From: Gammaproteobacteria bacterium
Lineage (GTDB): Bacteria > Pseudomonadota > Gammaproteobacteria > Pseudomonadales > Pseudohongiellaceae
Assembly: GCA_947458495.1 (NCBI GenBank)
Contig: CANHAR010000004.1
Coordinates: forward strand, 1 to 32,706
Length of the DNA stretch: 32,706 bases
Reading direction: 5' to 3'
The notes under the pieces were generated by a model. That model was not told the DNA's origin, searched no databases, and saw only the letters and a list, made by a program, of their open reading frames with translations. A program made the translations under genes and the position numbers. This document shows, piece by piece, positions 1 to 1,387 of the stretch; within the stretch, counting starts at the first letter, position 1, and each line of letters begins with the position of its first letter.

Positions 1-409
1 CAGCCTCATCGCGCAACCAGGCTCCATCAATCCAGTGCCAGTTCGGGTTGTCAAAACGGGCTTCATCGTCCCCTTCAAATCCACGTGCCAGATCCGGCCA
101 GATGGCGGCCTGGCCAAGCTGCCACTGCGCCTGGGTGTCGCGGTCAGCCACTTTGATGTCATCGGGCATGGTGTCCACAAAGTCCTGTTCAAAGCGCGGG
201 TGTGCACGCAGCATTGTCATGACCTGTTCGCGTGTGTCGGCTGACATCAACGCCCAGGCAACGTCAGCAGACAGACGATGACCGACAGCATCCCAGGCGC
301 TTGCTGTGCACGGCAGCAACAGCAGGGCAGCGGCTGCCGAGCTTGCCATGACCCGGCGGACATGGCGATGAATGGGGGAAAAAAACGGCGTGGGGTATTT
401 TGAAAACAT
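1..409 (-). CDS. S1/P1-nuclease-like secreted protein (N-terminal part; runs off the window)
   Basis: Minus-strand reading gives MFSKYPTPFFSPIHRHVRRVMASSAAAALLLLPCTASAWDAVGHRLSADVAWALMSADTREQV...NPNWHWIDGAW. It has a signal peptide followed by an N-terminal W and a GHR...A motif typical of S1/P1 nucleases. It is open to the window edge and absent from the ORF track. The start could also be 349. Confidence 0.7.
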   Translation of the reverse strand, partial: MFSKYPTPFFSPIHRHVRRVMASSAAAALLLLPCTASAWDAVGHRLSADVAWALMSADTREQVMTMLRAHPRFEQDFVDTMPDDIKVADRDTQAQWQLGQAAIWPDLARGFEGDDEARFDNPNWHWIDGAWLRDEA

Positions 410-597
410 AGATGAGCTTCCGGTTTTGGAGTTTGCGCACAGTGTAACAGAGGCGGGTGTGATGCAGCGCGCAGTCAGTGTTGCCGGCAGATGGTGGGCT
501 AAACAACACGTGCTTGAGGCTGTGCTGCTGATATCAATACGGTATAGTCAGATCACAAGCGTCACAACATCGAGGCTGGCGCGGTCAGCGAGCAGGC

Positions 598-637
598 AAA
601 AAAATGCCCACGTGGAGCGCTTGGCCCACACGTGGGC
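598..637 (-). terminator. Rho-independent terminator
   Basis: GCCCACGTG (606-614) and CACGTGGGC (629-637) form a perfect 9-bp stem. On the minus strand it is followed by A then seven T (598-604). Confidence 0.75.
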
Positions 638-713
638 GAGTTATCACCCATCAATGGAAAAGGGGAGAGTCTGTTCCATTTAAGCCACCAGCAGGGGAAT
701 GCCAGTGCTTGAT
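598..713 (-). ncRNA. Candidate small RNA with two C-rich-loop hairpins and an intrinsic terminator
   Basis: On the minus strand, hairpin 686-707 has an 8-bp stem (2 GU) and loop UUCCCC. Hairpin 653-680 has a 7-bp stem and loop CAGACUCUCCCCUU. Hairpin 606-637 has a 9-bp stem and is followed by A-UUUUUUU. A sigma54-like promoter lies just upstream. There is no credible ORF here. Confidence 0.5.
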
Positions 714-721
714 GTTGTTCA

Positions 722-739
722 ATGCATGAGCTGTGCCAG
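722..739 (-). promoter_or_regulatory. Sigma54 (-24/-12) promoter candidate
   Basis: The minus strand reads CTGGCACAGCTCATGCAT. It has TGGCAC and (A)TGCA, with exactly 10 nt between GG and GC as in consensus TGGCACG-N4-TTGCA. Predicted start is about 712-713. Confidence 0.5.
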
Positions 740-895
740 TTTTTTTAGTAAAAGTCTTACTTGTTGAATTTAAAAGCAAAGATGTTTTTTTCAAAGTGCT
801 CGGCGCGTTTCCTGTACGTGTAAAGCGTCGCTGCACAGGCAAGGAGAGGTTCTTTTTGGGTCTTGCACCTTGGTGCTGCACTCATATGGGGCGAA

Positions 896-943
896 GCTGG
901 GTTTAGGAATAGCTGGGTTTAGGTCTATCTGGGTGCAGGATTG
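896..943. repeat. Three-copy 16-bp tandem repeat
   Basis: GCTGGGTTTAGGAATA / GCTGGGTTTAGGTCTA / TCTGGGTGCAGGATTG, with the third copy degenerate. Confidence 0.7.
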
Positions 944-973
944 GCAAGATACTGTCATAGAGGAATGTGGCTG

Positions 974-1387
974 ATGGAGCCGTCAGAGTTAAAACAAGTA
1001 CAGGTTCAAGAAATCGACTTTAACGCCATAAGAGCGCAAGGAGCCGGTGGCCAGAACGTCAACAAAGTGTCGTCAGCAATTCATCTGCGTTACGACGTCA
1101 GGGCGTCGTCTCTGCCCGACGAGATCAAGGCCTTGGTGCTGGATCTGCGCGACCGGCGCATGACTTCGGAAGGCGTGATTGTTATCAAGGCACAACGTTT
1201 CCGTACCCAGGAAAAAAACCGCGAAGATGCCATCAAACGTTTACAGGCGCTCATCGATGCTGCCTGTGAAGTAGCGCCGGCGCGTCTGGCCACGCGGGTG
1301 CCGCGGGCTGCCAAGCGTCAGCGTCTTGATGAAAAGCGCAAGGTATCCACGATCAAGTCCTTACGCGGCAAGCCAGTTGCCGAGTAA
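974..1387 (+). CDS. arfB: Alternative ribosome-rescue factor / peptidyl-tRNA hydrolase ArfB
   Basis: RF-1-type GGQ motif in [24 protein letters not shown], with a basic C-terminal tail. Start at 974 has AGAGGA 9 nt upstream. Confidence 0.9.

Follow-up and report, generated by a model that had tools for sequence, protein, structure and literature searches.

RsaE and other sRNAs of the C-rich-loop type carry UCCC-type loops that are proposed to pair with Shine–Dalgarno regions, and EutX and Rli55 are sRNAs that sequester ANTAR proteins. The known sRNAs under the control of sigma54 and NtrC are few, and we found no description of one from the group of marine Gammaproteobacteria considered here. 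NrsZ of Pseudomonas (RF02695) is a short RNA that is made from a sigma54/NtrC promoter and induced by nitrogen limitation (PMC8395346, PMC9308961). In the NasS-NasT system, NasT binds a nasA leader (PMC3795266) and a leader hairpin is required (PMC5424462); the hexaloops of ANTAR targets follow a rule, with A at position 1 and G at position 4 (PMC3369931). Our literature search returned no mention of Pseudohongiella together with an sRNA. The locus analysed here lies in a Pseudohongiella genome, in a window (the whole stretch of DNA that was analysed) of 32,706 nt, where the original prediction had placed a sigma54-driven sRNA of about 115 nt with twin C-rich loops and had claimed no homology to a known family.

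The minus strand of the window encodes a predicted stand-alone structured RNA at 598..711 (~114–115 nt, predicted start 711-712), which agrees with the size first proposed, and both covariance models match it over its full length (R1, 123.5 bits, E 3.7e-25; R2, 104.9 bits). It folds at -46.6 kcal/mol (z = -3.95), and none of 200 shuffles was equally stable. Stem-loop 1 (682..710, minus) has 11 pairs and the loop UUCCCC at 694-699. It is followed by stem-loop 2 (653..680, minus), AAUGGAA-CAGACUCUCCCCUU-UUCCAUU, with a C-rich loop at 660-673, and by the linker GATGGGTGATAACTCGCCC (634..652, minus), with a GGGU that could pair to the GCCC in the 5' arm of the terminator. The intrinsic terminator (598..637, minus; GCCCACGUG...CACGUGGGC followed by A and U7) is kept in all homologues. 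The positions originally assigned to the -24/-12 site, the three stem-loops and the terminator were all recovered in the sequence. The twin loops fared less evenly: the C-run of the second loop is an invariant GACUCUCCCC in all 15 genus members, but the CCCC of the first is lost in one of them (L015) and replaced by UCCUCU-like sequence in the sister genus g5. No Rfam family reaches its gathering score; at gathering and permissive thresholds, the only matches were sub-threshold chance ones to ylbH (21.4 of 50 bits, on the other strand) and OmrA-B (17.2 of 40).

Upstream of the RNA, minus-strand positions 739-722 read CTGGCACAGCTCATGCAT, with GG (737-736) and GC (725-724) exactly 10 nt apart, as described in the original prediction. 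The putative -24/-12 box itself, TGGCACAGCTCATGCA (723..738, minus), differs from the consensus TGGCAC-N5-TTGCW by one mismatch in TTGC. The match by itself is not significant, with at least one exact match in 32 of 100 shuffles of the 32.7-kb window, and conservation therefore has to decide. The box TGGCA[CT]-N5-[AG]TGCA occurs with constant spacing in 15/15 genus members. It also lies directly upstream of the homologues from genera g5 and g7, and farther from the matched stretch in the g4 matches, although these homologues were found with a covariance model of the transcript only, with no promoter in the model. An IHF site near -31 (TATCAA) was considered and set aside; its position recurs, and it is mostly not significant.

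A candidate NtrC-type enhancer, CGCCCCATATGAGTGCA (877..893, minus), is located at -155 from the -24 box and is overlapped by a weaker candidate, TGCAGCACCAAGGTGCA (864-880, minus). No promoters other than the glnK-type ones of the genus (L121, L123-L125, L134-L144), among them the window genome's own (L121), went into the scoring matrix (GCACC-N5-GGTGC type). Their layout is very regular: the same kind of sigma54 box is accompanied by an NtrC site at -101 and usually by another at -132. Scored in this way, the window site reaches 12.3 bits (p = 0.007 vs shuffles) and is among the weaker sites of the set. An NtrC-type site with p < 0.05 is present in all 26 upstream regions, namely those of the 15 genus members and of the 11 homologues found first. 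It usually stands at -155 in the genus, and the same matrix places a site at about -99 in most of 16 g4-type loci. The ntrC gene scores above the family cut-off in 13 of the 15 genus genomes, and NtrC is most likely the activator of the RNA. The NtrC-like site also falls within the 5' region of arfB, the divergent neighbour, where a conserved AAGAACCAAAACG element adjoins it in most of the genus (window 877-974); arfB could share NtrC control, or the element may be the arfB promoter.

A DNA search of 56 related genomes recovered the element in the window genome and all 14 other genus members (15/15 Pseudohongiella genomes examined), and R1, built from the transcript alone, extended it to diverged homologues in three more genera of the family, g5, g7 and g4. 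Within the genus, 9 of the 27 pairs changed on both sides, which occurred in none of 500 shuffles; across 24 homologues, 22/27 pairs show double-sided change in an alignment fitted to the structure. Paired cells amount to 94.7% over these 24 homologues, compared with 72.8% in shuffles and <40% in slid controls. Stem 1 covaries strongly (7/11 pairs in the genus, 11/11 across genera). Stem 2 is invariant in Pseudohongiella and is replaced in g5 by different but complementary sequence, with covariation at 7/7 pairs across genera, and the loop that it closes, ACUCUCCCC (CUCUCCC), is kept in most homologues. Stem covariation and promoter conservation, on which the original prediction had been made to depend, are thus both found. 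A pattern of sigma54 box and CTCTCCC at the right distance gave ~60 matches in 137 genomes and 4 for the reversed control, and revealed additional g4 loci, where a long closing stem carries the loop. In L213-L225, L153, L154 and L064, this stem (UACAGG...CCUGUA in many) surrounds the CUCUCCC hairpin. Some candidates were rejected. L016 of genus g8 has a promoter-like match only, with no NtrC site and no RNA, and is not a homologue; its TGGCACAGCTCGTGCT box (1501-1548), found by DNA similarity, is possibly another sigma54 promoter. In L072, L156, L157 and L158, which lack a sigma54 box, the covariance model has probably matched no more than a terminator. Conservation, covariation, the promoter and enhancer motifs and synteny can all be read from the sequences themselves, and the significance of the locus derives from the conserved box, the homologues found with a promoter-free model and the double-sided pair changes.

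In Pseudohongiella, the RNA lies between arfB and an S1/P1-nuclease gene. On one side are thiolase, glyoxalase and arfB genes, oriented as in g5; the arfB-like gene of the window (974..1387, plus; name from the original prediction) is the divergent neighbour, and its position is conserved in the genus except in L015 and is also seen in g7. On the other side, the S1/P1-type nuclease gene (PF02265, assigned from the L003 orthologue; 1..409, minus) is downstream and runs off the window. In P. nitratireducens (L015 / L076), the RNA has kept its glyoxalase and thiolase neighbours, no arfB was found next to it, and the NtrC-like site is farther upstream, at -239. No nas genes were found in the genus neighbourhoods, and nas genes, nasT and hfq were not found in 2.0 of the 3.35 Mb (60%) of the complete genome G008. 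In P. nitratireducens, a response regulator encoded close to the RNA has a weak NasT match, but it proved OmpR-like, not NasT.

In the sister genus g5, the RNA lies in the same thiolase–glyoxalase neighbourhood, but next to nas genes. Three genomes share the identical order thiolase-glyoxalase-...-nasT-nasS-RNA-nrtA-nrtD-nirB-nirD-nasA, and the RNA stands directly before a NasA-like reductase in two further g5 loci; the nas names were assigned from gene order and from domains (PF13379 in both nasS and nrtA, PF00384 in nasA, nitrite-reductase domains in nirB), and nasT has receiver and ANTAR domains. In L062, tandem GTGGGAGCGAGCCTTGCTCGCGA repeats (REP/BIME-like) lie at ~1640-1830, upstream of the RNA, between nasS and the RNA promoter. 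The coding sequence of the nrtA-linked loci begins ~25–75 nt after the T-run, and a hairpin of 4–5 bp with the hexaloop AAUGUA/G (A1, G4), at the position of the linker in the window RNA, overlaps the 5' arm of the terminator. On this evidence, the homologous RNA of g5 is almost certainly the nas leader and would be a target of NasT; the nearby NasT probably adds antitermination. We tentatively propose, at somewhat less than an even chance, that the same NtrC/sigma54 RNA is an attenuated nas leader in one genus and a free-standing sRNA in its sisters, with the CUCUCCC loop as the surviving function. In one scenario, a leader orphaned by loss or relocation of the nas genes was retained and became a trans-acting sRNA; in the other, an sRNA was recruited as a leader. 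The clear promoter and enhancer, the covarying structure and the change of context between sister genera make the passage between leader and free sRNA, in either direction, testable on living relatives.

Since its g5 homologue is a nas leader, a cis-acting origin must also be weighed for the RNA of Pseudohongiella, and a cis-acting leader or attenuator is the main rival to the sRNA reading. S1/P1 nucleases are nucleic-acid scavenging enzymes, and NtrC/sigma54 transcription could be meant for the nuclease gene, with the terminator as a regulated stop as in g5. The nuclease gene adjoins the RNA, is co-directional with it and is conserved in the genus, so read-through into it may occur, and the GGGU–GCCC pairing with the terminator arm is possible in most genera. 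However, an extended -10-like box (TCTGTTACACT, 441..451, minus, in the window) stands between terminator and nuclease gene in 13/15 genus members, at very variable distances from the T-run (2 to 146 nt), and the antitermination hexaloop of g5 is lost at that position in all 15. The next gene is convergent in g4, where it belongs to the Lrp/AsnC family in many loci, and the loops and stem 2 are more conserved than a plain attenuator requires. We regard the cis-acting leader as unlikely. With no nas genes beside it, a promoter-like box of the nuclease's own and a convergent next gene in g4, the RNA looks stand-alone in Pseudohongiella and g4.

The RNA might instead bind a NasT-like ANTAR protein, sequestering it or responding to it in the manner of EutX and Rli55, with no pairing to mRNA. 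Two tandem A1/G4 hexaloops (GGA-ANNGAC-UCU and UCC-AUUGAU-GGG) can form in 15/15 genus members, their positions 2–3 are the variable ones in the genus, and the dual motif arises in 0.3–1.2% of shuffles; the g5 relative moreover adjoins nasT and carries its A1/G4 hairpin over the terminator. Yet the mini-hairpins of the genus have only 3 bp, lie around the much stronger stem 2 and compete with it, and none is at the g5 hexaloop site or over the terminator. The first hairpin is absent in g5, which has the terminator hairpin only, the genus sequences are not independent, and nasT is found neither beside the RNA nor in the searched 60% of G008. The support is suggestive but weak, and we consider this alternative improbable, more so than the cis-acting leader. 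As a separate observation, two loci of family f43 from other genera (L159:1501-1589, L160:1501-1610) have a sigma54 box, TGGCACGCGTTATGC, followed by an RNA of ~70 nt. Its terminator is overlaid by GGGU-AAUGAA-GCCC, which has an A1/G4 hexaloop, a porin-like gene comes immediately after it, and this RNA looks like another sigma54-driven ANTAR-type leader.

Two further explanations can be treated briefly. That the locus encodes the peptide MEQTLPFSIDG, as a small protein gene or as a dual-function RNA, is very improbable: an 11-codon ATG...TGA frame does cross stem-loop 2 in 13/15 genus members, but two species have TAG as third codon (one also with a frameshift), there are no silent changes, all variation is confined to one loop codon and the frame is absent in g5. 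A diverged NrsZ can be given equally little credence: the type of control is the same and the g4 relatives contain ACAGGNAG, which resembles the NrsZ motif ACAGGCAG, but the RF02695 model finds nothing in the window, also with E relaxed to 10 on the short stretch, or in the relatives, R1 has no match on a bona fide Pseudomonas NrsZ that the Rfam model scores at 154.9 bits (positive control), and the RNA stands beside arfB and glyoxalase, not ntrC, with no NrsZ at any of eight Pseudohongiella ntrC loci.

The reading that we favour, and consider probable, places a stand-alone sRNA gene in the nitrogen-limitation regulon; it would be induced via NtrC and sigma54, and its RNA would use the C-rich loops for pairing with ribosome-binding sites. 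From the sequence comparisons we infer transcription of the RNA, its dependence on NtrC, its action in trans and the type of its targets. When nitrogen is short, phosphorylated NtrC would bind the enhancer, which precedes the -24 box by ~155 bp, and activate the sigma54 polymerase, and an RNA of ~115 nt would be made that ends at the strong terminator. This RNA would expose its C-rich loops, chiefly that of stem 2 with its conserved CUCUCCC(C), and the most likely pairing partners of these loops are G-rich Shine–Dalgarno regions; the pairing could repress target mRNAs, or activate them by opening structures. The Pseudohongiella RNA would be orthologous to the NtrC/sigma54-driven nas leader of g5, but free-standing, at a position with no nas genes. 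Two pattern searches of ribosome-binding sites before ATG for 8–9 nt of loop complementarity gave no target conserved beyond one clade. The candidates GGGGAGAGT, before flgC and a UPF0016-like membrane protein (named by eye) in one clade, and GGGGAGAG(T), which four closely related species have before a PQQ-dehydrogenase-like protein, were unconvincing. The sRNA would add a post-transcriptional arm to the nitrogen-limitation response of these marine bacteria.

Compared with the described systems, the window RNA is closest in control to NrsZ, as a short RNA with a sigma54/NtrC promoter, and the Pseudomonas NrsZ copy has C-rich segments as well. NrsZ, however, is ~226 nt long and located beside ntrC with repeated ACAGGCAG units, whereas the window RNA is about half that length and located elsewhere, and the two match in neither sequence nor structure in either direction. 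The g5 RNA resembles the NasS-NasT nas leader in its place between nasS and nrtA, the upstream nasT, the NtrC/sigma54 promoter and the A1/G4 hairpin; the Pseudohongiella RNA differs from it in having neither nas neighbours nor the terminator hexaloop, and its next gene has a promoter-like box. With RsaE and other C-rich-loop sRNAs the window RNA shares loops of the UCCC type; these sRNAs belong to another phylum and have another promoter, and none of them is matched by the window RNA in Rfam. The likeness to EutX and Rli55 is limited to the tandem A1/G4 hexaloops that this free-standing RNA may form; no riboswitch was found with the window RNA, its hairpins are very short and no ANTAR partner has been found in the genus so far. 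On these tests, the window RNA family is separate from NrsZ, though its control is NrsZ-like. The comparisons point to a genuine and apparently unreported family of NtrC/sigma54-driven RNAs, absent from Rfam, with what would be an unusual double life as leader and sRNA.
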